Origin: Coniochaeta sp. PMI_546
Lineage: Eukaryota; Ascomycota; Sordariomycetes; Coniochaetales; Coniochaetaceae
Assembly: GCA_021432605.1 (NCBI GenBank)
Contig: MU271146.1
Location: forward strand, 1,116,001-1,180,000
Reading direction: 5' to 3'
DNA length: 64,000 nucleotides
A program made the translations under genes and the position numbers. Below the pieces are notes generated by a model. It had not been told where the DNA came from. It made no database searches and saw only the letters and a list, made by a program, of their open reading frames with translations. Numbering within the stretch: position 1 is the first letter of the stretch; each line of letters opens with the position of its first letter. Below are positions 56,882 to 62,862 of the stretch, one piece after another.

Positions 56882-59800
56882 ATGTCGCTTGTTTTATCGG
56901 CCCCTAAGATCGTCCTGCTCGCCGTGGAGCTCGCAGCGAAGGCTGACATTGACGGCCTTCGACATCTCGCAGCTCGACACGACAATGTCCTGCGGAAAGA
57001 CATTCTTCTTCGCGTCCTCCTGACATACCTACCCGAAGCACTGCCTTCAAGCAAGTACGTCGGCTTCCTCGAGGAGATCGAACGCGGGGAATACTCGGAG
57101 AGCGATTATGGGGACGTCGATTCTTCCGCAGTTGATGGCCTGAGCGATCAGGAAGCCGCCAAGAAGGTGCGGAGGCTACACTTGCTCCAGCTCTCGTCGC
57201 CAGAAACGCCCCTTGATGCTGCAGAAGACTTGACAACTCAGTTCCTGCTCAGGCGAGCTTATAAGGTAGACGAGGAGGCGGGATTGCTTGACTCGCTGCC
57301 CGATCTGCTTGTTCCTTTCTTGGACCATTCGCCTTGTATCCGCACTCTGATGGTATCTGCCATTCTACCGCTCTTAAGACGAAATTTCGAATACTACCCG
57401 ACATCTCCAATACAACACACGCTCTACAGCTTCCAGCACCTACCAGACCGAACGGCTGTCAATCTTCTCCTGGATCAGACAGGAGACCGCGCGGGAGACC
57501 ATACGTCCATTGGACGAGATCTCAGAGGTCTGATCGGTCCATGGCTGTACAATGAAAAGAGATGGACTACAAGAACGAATGACAGTGAGACAGGTGGCAA
57601 AATTTCCGAGCCCGCCGGCTCCGCGATAGAGCAAGAGTTATGTCCTGGCTGGGCGGAAGTGCTCGAATGGCTCACAACCAAGGCTTCGAAATCCTGGAGA
57701 GTTGCCGTCAGTGCTATAAATGAGTGGGACGGGCCTGACGATGTCGACTTGGGTGGCTACGGCGCGATGTGGCTTAACGATCAAGAGCAGGAGCATCTGG
57801 AGCGCACATATGCCCGCGCTGCACTGGCATCAGCCTATCTAATTCCGGAAGCCTCCCAAGATGCTCTCTCAGGAGCCCACAGCATCATCACAAAAATCAT
57901 GGGACTCCTTGATCAGGACACCGGCTCCCCACTACAGAGCGCCGCATCTCTGCTACCACCTATCTCAGCCCAAGAGATCAGCCACCTCTTGAGTGCCAAA
58001 AATGCGACGTGGTTGCGCAACGACTTACTGCAGGAGTCTAATCCCCTGACATCGCCTACTAAAGCGGCCACACAGCTCCTCTACGGCCTCACCCTGAGCG
58101 CATATCTCCTGACGAGAAATGGTGTGCCATGTACTGTGGGACGGGCGGGAGAGTTGGCTCTTCTTCAAGACGAGCGTGACCAGAAGTCGGAAGCTGCGAA
58201 ACTAATACACACTCTAAGCAACAACGGACCTAAAAGCGATGACAAATACTGGATCAAAGCCAGGAATGAAATTCTTTGGCTGCGCGACTGGGGCTCTGAG
58301 GAGGAGGGCACAACCCCTGGACAACAGCCCAAGGGTGTCTTCAGCCAGTTGAAAAGAGAGTATATAGAGGTAGAGATACTCAAAGCCTTGCTGGCAAACA
58401 CACGTGAGTCGCAGCACATCTAGGTCAAAGAACGGGCGATATTGACATTATTCCAGGTTACTCGCTAGCCCGGTCACTGTACGAAGACAGTCCAGACAAG
58501 CCCCTATCGAAAAAGGTGCTCCAAGACACTGTCTTTGCCGCAGCCTATAACGCCTTCGACAACGCCTCCAATCCAAATCGGACGAGGGGAGGTTTGAAGA
58601 AATGTGATGATATGTATGTATCATACCTGTTTCCAGTTGTCCCTCAGTCCTGGCAACTCACAGTCTCGCAGAATCAAGGCCTTTCCCAAGACCATCGAAA
58701 AATCTCTCCCAGCAACCAAACGAATAGAGGCCCTACTCAAAGTAACCCATGCCTTGAGCGAGTTCCGCATCGTCCTCAAGCAAGGCGAACCTTTCACCCC
58801 GGTGCTCCTCCGCGTGCACCAAGATCCAGTGGCCATAGTAGGCAAGATTCTCGAGCAGAATCCAAAGAGCTACACCCGAGTCCACGACCTCGTCGATCTC
58901 GGCGCCAACATGGTCGCCGCCGGTCTAGTCACCAGATCCTCCCGCGGCACCAATCCCCCACCGCTAAGCCCCGAAGACGAACGCGCAGAACAGGAAACAG
59001 CCGAGCGCCGCATAACAGCAATGTGCATCGACGCCGCCCTGACAGAAGACGACTTCGAAACAGCCTACTCGTACGTGACCAACCGTCTGTCGGCCCTCTC
59101 CCCCACCACCCCTCACACCAAATCCCCCTCCCCAACCTCAGTCCCCACTGGACCCGTAGTAGACGACTACTCGTGGAAAGCCGCCCTCCAAGCAGGCAAG
59201 TACCGCCGCACCCCGCGCACCCTCCGTCCAACCCACCTGGGCACCGCGTCCGCGAACCCGGACATCCGCCACCTGGAGCAGCGCATCGACTGCCTCTCGA
59301 CCGCCCTGCGCATCGCGCCCGCCCCGACCCTGACCGAGATCCTCAACGCCTTCCGCCGCGCGGAGGAGGAGCTCGTCGCCGCCCTGGCCGCCGAGGCGGA
59401 GCAGGAGAGCGCCTGGGACGAACGCGCCGACCAAGGCCTGGGAGCCGCCATGCCGGGTGGGTTTGGGGCGGCGGCGACGCCTGCCTCTTCTGCTTCTGGC
59501 TGGAAGCCCCCTGCGGCAGCGGCGAGGACTAGGCGGGATAGTGTCCACCAGGTCGACGAGAAGCCCATGTCGCTGTTTGATCTGTCGCGTGCGAGCGTGG
59601 CGTCCGCGCAGCGGAACTTGACGGCGCTGTCGAGTCTGCAGCGGAGTGGGTTGGGTAGGTTGACTGGGTTTGCTAGTGGTGGTGGTGGAGGTGGTGGTGG
59701 AGGAGGAGCAGGAGGAGGAGGTCCCCTGTCTGCAACATCCGGAAGTGAGGATGAGGGTGGAGAGTCCAAGCGTGTGAGGAAACGGGATCAGCTCCGCGAG

Positions 59801-59890
59801 GCGGCCATGGGATCACTTGTGTCTGGTGTTGGGTGGCTGATCGGTGCTGATAACAACGCTGCCCAAGGAGGCGGGCATGAGGATCGATGA
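56882..59890 (+). CDS. SEC39: Sec39 domain protein of the Dsl1 tethering complex
   Basis: Exons 56882-58403, 58457-58613 and 58672-59890 encode 965 aa. The N-terminus (KIVLLAVELAAKADIDGLRH; RKDILLRVLLTYLPEALPSS) and the alpha-solenoid body (FLLRRAYKVDEEAGLLDSLP; LHLLQLSSPETPLD; RNEILWLRDWGSEE; YIEVEILKALLANTRYSLAR) fit the Sec39/NBAS family. Sec39 works with Dsl1 and Tip20 at the ER to tether COPI vesicles in Golgi-to-ER transport. The third exon continues the helical domain (ITAMCIDAALTEDDFETAYS) and ends with a Gly-rich linker and a conserved-looking LREAAMGSLVSGVGWLIGAD. Introns are 53 and 58 nt. No membrane segment is expected. Confidence 0.9.
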
Positions 59891-60283: not shown

Positions 60284-60625
60284 CTAATCCTCCGTCTCGG
60301 ATGTCGACCAAGTCGCTCCCAACAGACCTCTCTCGACGTGAGTGACATCACTGTCCGGTGTCGAGGGCGTCATTCCTAGGAGAGCCCGTTCGATATGGGT
60401 AAAACTCTCCCCTAGGCAGTCATCGTCCTTCGAGGCAGTTGACGGAGTCGGTGGAGTCATGCAAAGAAGGGATCTATCGATATGGGTGGAGCCTTCCTCG
60501 TCTTCCTCGTCTCCCTCGTCTCTCTCGTCTCTCTCGTCCTTCTTCTTTGCAATATCGTACTCGCTCGCACCGCCCATAACGGTCAGGCTGCCGACGCTGC
60601 TCGCGACGCCGATGGTAACAGATAA
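60284..60625 (-). CDS. In-frame open extension downstream of the IES1 stop codon, with three LLG repeats
   Basis: The frame directly after the IES1 TAG (60628-60626) stays open for 113 codons to a stop at 60286-60284. The first ATG in it is at 60577 and would give a separate 97-aa protein (MGGASEYDIAKKKDERDERD and on). It holds three repeats of about 20-27 residues: THIDRSLLCMTPPTPST, THIERALLGMTPSTPDS and THVERGLLGATWSTSET. The last residues of IES1 before the stop (NDVDKTLLGLDGESDTD) resemble a fourth copy. This could be a readthrough extension, a short independent gene, or a former part of the IES1 C-terminus cut off by a stop; sequence alone cannot decide. Confidence 0.4.
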   Translation of the reverse strand, partial: LSVTIGVASSVGSLTVMGGASEYDIAKKKDERDERDEGDEEDEEGSTHIDRSLLCMTPPTPSTASKDDDCLGESFTHIERALLGMTPSTPDSDVTHVERGLLGATWSTSETED

Positions 60626-62862
60626 CTAGTCGGTGTCAGACTCGCCGTCCAGTCCCAGCAGAGTCTTGTCGACGTCGTTGAGTTCATCGTCATCCTGATC
60701 TTCCCGTTCTGCGGTCTCAGCCTCGTCACCGCCGTAGCCTTCAGCCTCGGCAAGGAGTTCCTTTTCGCCGTCGGTCAACTCATCTTCCACCCGCGACGTA
60801 TGGCCATTTGTAGTGCGCCGTCGAGAACCGTTGGTCTTGGCGCGGCGCGCTCCATGAGTGACAGCCCGGCGCAGGAGTATCTCCTGCTCGTCCTCGGTCT
60901 CGGCCGGATCAATGGTGTTGTTATCATCCATGTCCATGCGATCCTCGTCGTCCTCGTCGTCACCGTTCTTGTGCCCGTTGATCCTCTCCTTCTTGACAGG
61001 TCGAATGACGCCCAGGTCGGGACCAACATGGTTCTCCCAGCGAGCAAGACGTCGATTGATGCGACGGAGCGCACCAGCATACGCGCTAGCCTCCTCGCCA
61101 AAATCATCCTTCTCGCTTGCCAACGGTGTCAAGCCTCCAAACCCGCGCTCGCGAAAGGGGTCCGCGCTAGGAATGACGGTTGAATCGGCACCAACGCTCG
61201 CCAGGACGAGCCGCTGCTGGTTCTGCGCCGCAACCTCCTCGTCTTCGCTGTTCTCGAACGGCCGGTCCTCCCTGTCCTTCATATACGTGAGGCGGGTCAG
61301 AGCACGGATAATGGCGCCTTCGCCTCGGCGCAGCTTGCGTGCCTTGCGGTGTTCTTTCCGCATACCGCGATCAAGGATGTACTCTACACGTTGAGACCGG
61401 TTCCTCTCAACAGCTAGTTGGTGTGCGGTGGGCGGCCGAGGCTTGCGGGTTGGAATGCCGTCGATACCATGTCCTGGGGCGGCTGGAGACGAGTGGTCGA
61501 CGATCTGGTACTTAAGAGACGCGCCGCCACGTCGGCTGGTGCCCGCGTTGCTCAACGGTCCGCTTCTCGCGCCGAGGGCTCGAGGTGGCGGGGTGGATGT
61601 CCGGGAGTCGAGGTCGCTGTCGTGCTTGGAGGGACGAATACGTGGTAGAATGCCGCTCGTGGGCACCGGAGTGAGCTCGTCACCAGGGAAGACGCGAGTC
61701 CGAGCTGCTGCGCCTGGGCGTTTGGCTTGGGTATCGGCTATCAGCTGCTGGTCGGCTTCGATAATCTTGGCTCGCATCTCTCGCTTCGCATTGCCGAACT
61801 CTACTTCCTCTGGCGTATCGATGTTTTCCAGCTCTTGTTCCTCTTTTGTCATCTCCTCGAGCACCGGCACACCTTGGTTCGCAACATCCAGACCATAGTC
61901 AACACCTGGGCCGAACGGGTTCTCCTCGCAGCCCTCCTCTGTGAAGTCGGATTCCAGATAGAACCACATGATCCAGAGGAAGGCTCTAGCACGCGACTTG
62001 CTGGTATAATTGGTTCGCATAACCAGGTCATGGAACTCTCGGCCAGCCGGGAAGTGTAGCTCTGCAATCTTTGGTGCCGCCTGGCAGATGACGAAGAGCA
62101 GATTTACAGGATTCGTCCTTGGGACGTCGCACTGTTTTATCTTCTCTAGCGTGTTTGGCTCGGGCCGGTCTTCAGCACCGCCTTTCAGAATCGACTTTAG
62201 TCGTGGTGCATCTTGAAGTTGCTTGTATTGATGAGGGTCTTGATGTGCTTGGAGAGAGGGTATCGCGTGGTATGTCCTGAGTTGTGCTCGCATTTCAGGG
62301 AAGACTGTAGGCAGGGCCGTTGATTAGTATCTTCATCTCCTTGGGATCCAGAGGGATACTCACAGTTGAGGGTGGTATTCATCCGGCCGATATTGACCAA
62401 GAGGCACACCATGGCCATGCCCTTTGCAGCCTCGCGGTCACTTAGCAGCTTGTCTCGGAGGACCTTGCTGGTCTTGCTGCTCCTCGACATGGTATCAATG
62501 TAGAGGTCAGCAAAGCACTGCTTGCCGATCGTCTCGGGTTCGTAGCTGTTGGTAAACTCCTTGCGTTCATCGTCAAAGACAGCCTTGAGAAAATCAAACT
62601 GAATGTCCTTCCTCCACAGAGGCTCTCCGTCCTCCTTCTTCAGATGCTTAACCTTGCCTATGGTACTGCCTCCATTTGGTGCCATGGAGTCCCTTGCGCC
62701 ACGGCGTCGGCGAGGGCCTTCTGATGGATCCGGGGTCGCGTCCATCATCTTTGTATCCTCGTCCTCTGTCAAGTTTGTCATGAAAGATGCTTGGGCCTGT
62801 ATTGGAGAGCTTGGCTGCTCCATGTCGGACATGGCTCCCGGAGAGCTCGCTGGGGGAGCCAT
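60626..62862 (-). CDS. IES1: INO80 chromatin-remodelling complex subunit Ies1
   Basis: Exons 62862-62364 and 62304-60626 encode 725 aa. Signature regions: KDIQFDFLKAVFDDERKEFT, ADLYIDTMSRSSKTSKVLRD, AMVCLLVNIGRMNTTLNFFP joined over the 59-nt intron to EMRAQLRTYHAIPSLQAHQD, YKQLQDAPRLKSILKG, RTNPVNLLFVICQAAPKIAE and SKSRARAFLWIMWFYLESDF, then NPFGPG. These fit the Ino-eighty subunit 1 family of filamentous fungi, a nuclear subunit of the INO80 nucleosome remodeller. The C-terminal third is acidic and disordered, with LTDGEKELLAEAEGYGG and DVDKTLLGLDGES just before TAG. The open frame continues past that stop (see the neighbouring entry). Confidence 0.9.

Follow-up and report, generated by a model that had tools for sequence, protein, structure and literature searches.

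An Ies1-like gene in the window analysed here (the whole stretch of DNA, 64,000 nucleotides) terminates in a TAG, yet its reading frame continues well beyond it. Is the sequence behind this stop part of the protein and, if so, how would it come to be translated? A first-pass annotation of the same DNA raised the matter and offered (i) stop-codon readthrough, (ii) a strain-specific or wrong stop, and (iii) a separate gene. All three stay on the list, which lacked A-to-I mRNA editing although the genome supports that mechanism specifically.

The Ies1-like gene

The gene occupies 62862-60626; all coordinates given for the gene and its tail are on the minus strand. Exon 1 (62364..62862) ends at a GTGAGT donor, and the frame continues across the 59-nt intron (62305..62363, GTGAGT...CTACAG) once the exons are joined. 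Exon 2 (60626..62304) extends through the TAG, which it includes, to complete a protein of 725 amino acids. The TAG itself (60626..60628) presents the A at 60627 as a candidate A-to-I site.

Presumably this protein is Ies1, a probable subunit of the INO80 chromatin-remodelling complex. Pfam returned no match for the three frames of the region that were tried, and the PDB none for the 97-aa tail or for the protein of exon 2. The genome assembly comprises 33.5 Mb in 24 contigs, in which the exon 2 protein has one match, at its own locus, as does the tail when hits with E up to 1 are admitted. Searches with the exon 2 protein in two collections that are not fungal gave 2 stretches fitting the pattern in viral_contigs and 26 in genome_contigs, with 0 confirmed relatives in either. 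A named Ies1 gene, MGG_08312, is recorded for Magnaporthe oryzae in an excerpt of PMC8878131. In a literature search of titles and abstracts, no publication on the Ies1-like tail appeared among the matches listed.

Adjoining the Ies1-like gene and convergent with it is a gene for the secretory protein Sec39 (PF08314; window 56882-59890, plus strand), of which the ORF at 58607-59890 may be a further exon.

An open frame behind the stop

As the first-pass annotation had read it, the TAG at 60628-60626 is followed in frame by 113 sense codons (60625-60287), which a second TAG (60286-60284) closes. Its placement of a possible gene start at 60577, 48 bp past the stop, agrees with the sequence as well (ATG 60577-60575, gap 60625-60578); the ATG could open a separate 97-aa ORF. 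The acidic stretch of the tail contains a 9-bp tandem repeat of 4.8 copies (60496..60538).

The length of the tail is by itself mildly unusual and not unique. In sets of 4,000 sequences each, a 113-codon open frame arises by chance in 0.95% of random genome-like ones, 0.98% of tail shuffles, and 0.08% of 3′ flank shuffles. Across 264 kb, 4 of 60 coding-like ORFs (each at least 150 codons long), Ies1 included, are followed by an in-frame stretch of at least 113 codons. One of the other three is antisense to an ABC-transporter-like frame and one has its stop inside intron-like sequence, both as judged by eye, while the third scores as non-coding. Extensions of at least 60 codons number 10 in the same 264 kb, again with Ies1 included, and five of the others were inspected as sequence: two neighbouring ones lie, as judged by eye, on the strand opposite an ABC-transporter-like frame, two have intron-like sequence around the stop, and one is non-coding by score.

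Coding constraint within the tail

Taken as a whole, the tail has a codon score of 0.121, against a mean of 0.120 for 217 real coding windows, and its own frame scores best of the six. This value rests largely on the acidic stretch, whose high score comes from the region of the 9-bp tandem repeat. The repeat part alone scores −0.018, which is ambiguous: 7% of 326 real windows score as low, and 17% of 1,625 off-frame windows reach that value or a higher one.

The repeats themselves are more informative. All three that had been read in the tail (THIDRSLLCMTP, THIERALLGMTP, and THVERGLLGATW) are present, and their codons were compared over THIDRSLLCMTPPTP (repeat 1, 60443..60487), THIERALLGMTPSTP (repeat 2, 60356..60400), and THVERGLLGATWSTS (repeat 3, 60299..60343). 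In frame, their pN/pS is 0.29-0.30, whereas the two alternative frames give 0.98 and 4.18; of the 15 codons compared, 12 vary at the third position, 9 at the first, and 3 at the second. Of 20,000 column permutations, 2 give a pN/pS of 0.30 or lower, and of 20,000 neutral simulations none does, although the ratio is biased downward, and these tests are somewhat favoured, because the repeats were first noticed as protein repeats. Since the differences per site are mostly synonymous, the tail has probably been translated in the Ies1-like frame and has probably been under protein-level selection. The annotation had regarded an absence of codon constraint in 60284-60625 as evidence against its own proposal; constraint is in fact found there, among the tail repeats.

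An origin of the tail by chance, as an open frame containing an acidic repeat of low complexity, would be consistent with the 1% or so of random sequences that stay open as long, with the 9-bp tandem repeat in the acidic stretch, and with the ambiguous codon score of the repeat part. The synonymous pattern of the tail repeats, matched in so few permutations, runs counter to it and leaves chance an extremely improbable explanation. A recent nonsense mutation or an assembly error fares better, since an ancestral protein that ran through a TAG now new or unreal in this strain would leave exactly such an intact, constrained tail, and the locus is seen in one genome only. Weakly opposed to this is the fact that the stop happens to be an editable UAG, and the small number of contigs suggests a good assembly; on balance, a recent or false stop is rather unlikely.

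Probable continuity across the stop

When the 725-aa protein is scanned with a matrix built on the three tail repeats, the copy NDVDKTLLGLDGESD (60635..60679), just before the stop, matches best. The best 8-mer in this copy, VDKTLLGL, scores 20.3, versus 9.0 for the next among 718 8-mers. With the caveat that this core was picked after the repeats had been seen, its score is reached in 1 of 2,000 shuffles of the last 120 residues. None of 38,073 control positions reaches it; these come from 69 other long frames, each running from stop to stop over at least 300 codons, and some of them are not genes. The pre-stop copy is also the best of 713 13-mers; here, the score is reached at 3 of 37,728 control positions and in 17 of 2,000 shuffles of the same 120 residues, a less sharp result than that for the 8-mer. 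Plain Smith-Waterman alignment of the pre-stop sequence with the tail is weak, with 84 of 2,000 shuffles as good and other stretches of the protein tying with it. Compared with the three tail repeats in turn, the pre-stop copy gives pN/pS values of 0.58, 1.18, and 1.07 and hence no clear synonymous excess.

The resemblance that had been claimed between the tail repeats and the last Ies1 residues is thus upheld by the matrix match but finds little echo in plain alignment and none in a synonymous excess. The accompanying argument, that the frame past the stop is non-random, draws its strength from the codon constraint among the tail repeats and, to a lesser degree, from the repeat match across the stop. 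This match suggests that the sequence on either side of the stop was likely one protein, of which the upstream copy is the most diverged.

The tail could instead be a separate 97-aa gene or downstream ORF with the ATG at 60577 as its start, perhaps one that arose when an ancestral gene split. The ATG is flanked by G at −3 and +4, lies close behind the stop, and leads into an open frame. The shared frame and the continued repeat would then be a matter of coincidence or ancestry, the space for a promoter is probably small, and the genome holds no second copy of the tail. Taken together, these points give a separate gene a small chance of being correct.

Splicing around the stop

Alternative splicing would connect the tail to the main protein if an exitron-like intron took the TAG out of some transcripts. 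At the stop itself are a CTAG acceptor and a CTGAC sequence that resembles a branch site, and the frame would be kept by removal of GTGGAA..CTAG (165 nt) or by GC-AG options such as GCGGGT..CAG (198 nt). Among the 40 listed of 87 candidates, however, the in-frame options each rely on a weak GT donor, a rare GC donor, or an unusual acceptor, and both of the removals named above would delete the pre-stop repeat. No GTRNGT donor is found between 61500 and 60500. Splicing is, for the present locus, a distinctly unlikely explanation. On the same donor search, a consensus GT intron spanning the stop was rejected.

Probable editing machinery in this genome

In a PDB comparison, an isocitrate lyase fragment from this genome matches 5e9h, 5e9f, and 5e9g best, with 1dqu behind them; we take the first three to be from Magnaporthe or Fusarium and the last from Aspergillus. 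The genome looks like that of a Sordariomycete. Fungi of this class, according to excerpts of PMC4817773 and PMC11156358, edit mRNA from A to I when they reproduce sexually, strongly preferring an A that is preceded by U, and this editing turns UAG stops into UGG. Stop-loss editing in 323 Fusarium graminearum genes is given in the excerpted PMC4817773. The editing enzyme consists of Tad2-Tad3 and the DUF726 protein Ame1, the ability was gained in Sordariomycetes, and a KN to MV change in Ame1 is critical for editing, as stated in PMC11087585.

DUF726 has five matches at three places in the genome. An Ame1-like gene with the MV pair lies at C11:79431-80548 (L007 and L009); further DUF726 genes are located on C7 (L006, with KN) and C2 (L008 and L010, divergent). 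L007 thus has MV where its paralogue L006 has KN. The distance from the MV pair of L007 to the active-site Ser is 30 residues, versus 31 by the numbering in PMC11087585, so a one-residue indel is assumed. The S-D-H spacing fits both L006 and L007 and does not discriminate between them. On these sequence features, the lineage appears to have the editing machinery.

A PUK1-like kinase serves as a positive control. The match at C2:1760874-1761062 contains TAGTGG and translates as RCD*WSIGV; in the three PDB alignments shown, the corresponding residues are D[LW]WS. The locus (L041) spans C2:1760100-1761800, with its TAG at C2:1760964-1760966. In Neurospora crassa, UAGUGG of the PUK1 orthologue NCU03242 is edited to UGGUGG (PMC4817773, in excerpt), and the TAGTGG found here occupies the same kinase motif. 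The kinase match looks PUK1-like, an orthology drawn from the motif and codon pattern and not from a tree, and its TAGTGG is a good sign, by analogy, that the lineage uses UAG to UGG editing. A survey of kinases reported 141 matches, of which 8 contain a single TAG and no other stop, 1 a single TAA, and 5 a single TGA. Three of the 8 single-TAG matches were inspected, those with nearly no extra length, and no TAG excess is therefore claimed. One is the PUK1-like case; the other two have the TAG near the edge of the match, at codon 4 of 146 and codon 7 of 61, in what is probably intron or flank.

RNA context of the stop codon

The A of the Ies1 UAG has U at −1 and G at +1, which is true of every UAG stop and carries little weight; further on, the context is mixed, with U at +2, U at +3, and A at +4. 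This A is unpaired in the minimum-energy folds at all seven lengths tried. Its predicted probability of lying in a hairpin loop is ~0.3 with 30 nt on either side, against a mean of 0.29 for 400 random UAGs, 33% of which reach the Ies1 value. At 20, 25, 35, 40, and 50 nt, the probability is 0.96, 0.86, 0.44, 0.15, and 0.33, respectively. The A of the PUK1-like site attains 0.96-1.0 with 15-30 nt on either side and 0.035 at 40 nt. Since the probability varies with length even at this site, the folds depend on the stretch chosen. The modelled RNA structure does not speak for editing of the Ies1 UAG, so the case for editing rests on the constrained tail and the presence of an editing system.

Ribosomal readthrough of the UAG is served equally well by the tail evidence and would render editing unnecessary. 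Known leaky stop contexts include UGA CUA and UAG CARYYA; the UAG UUA of this gene is not a known one, and nothing specific at this locus favours readthrough, which is accordingly rated improbable.

A candidate edited stop codon

A-to-I editing of the Ies1 UAG to UGG is the best single mechanism for this candidate site and, in our estimate, has an even chance of being right. UAG as the stop favours editing because the preferred U precedes the A and one edit yields a sense codon. Under the editing proposal, the tail would be a real coding part of the Ies1-like gene, and during sexual development the Tad2-Tad3-Ame1 deaminase would turn the UAG (60628-60626) of some transcripts into UIG, which is read as UGG (Trp). 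Hyphae would then contain the 725-aa protein, whereas fruiting bodies would additionally contain an 839-aa form that gains the acidic stretch and three more LLG/MTP repeats. We infer the editing of this UAG, its timing and extent, as well as the function of the tail, which is perhaps that of a docking tail. TP pairs resemble proline-directed kinase sites.

A fuller version of the proposal envisages an INO80 subunit with two developmental forms, of which the long one would be made by fruiting-body editing only; its tail repeats would extend a series begun in the main protein and so tune docking valency. This version is tentative and, as a whole, somewhat doubtful.

Comparison with known systems

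Three systems of fungal stop-codon editing offer points of comparison. The first is CHE1 of Fusarium, a case of premature-stop-correction (PSC) editing in hyphae (PMC11169179, in excerpt), in which, as in the Ies1-like gene, an in-frame UAG divides a short from a long form. CHE1 is a different gene edited at a different stage, and the excerpt describes a predicted hairpin loop and a site conserved in relatives, whereas the loop predicted for Ies1 is unconvincing.

The second is PSC editing of the PUK1 type, which the Ies1-like gene resembles in having a UAG within what is apparently one ancestral coding sequence. Coding constraint downstream of the stop, seen here as the pN/pS of 0.30, is likewise expected of PSC rather than stop-loss sites. 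PUK1 is described as non-functional without editing in the excerpted PMC4817773; the 725-aa Ies1-like product, in contrast, is probably functional alone.

The third is stop-loss editing as in white collar 1 of Sordaria macrospora, where the loss of a UAG adds an extension of 131 aa with peptide evidence, according to an excerpt of PMC6794485. The Ies1-like gene shares with it a UAG end, a long in-frame C-terminal extension, and a lineage that seems equipped for editing. It differs in that editing is deduced here and in that the Ies1-like tail seems to carry on a repeat begun in the main protein. A stop-loss candidate with protein-level constraint on its tail, in a probable chromatin regulator, would make a good test of whether such editing is adaptive or noise. 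If confirmed, it would be a further case of known fungal stop-codon editing, notable as a probable INO80 subunit whose tail carries repeats.
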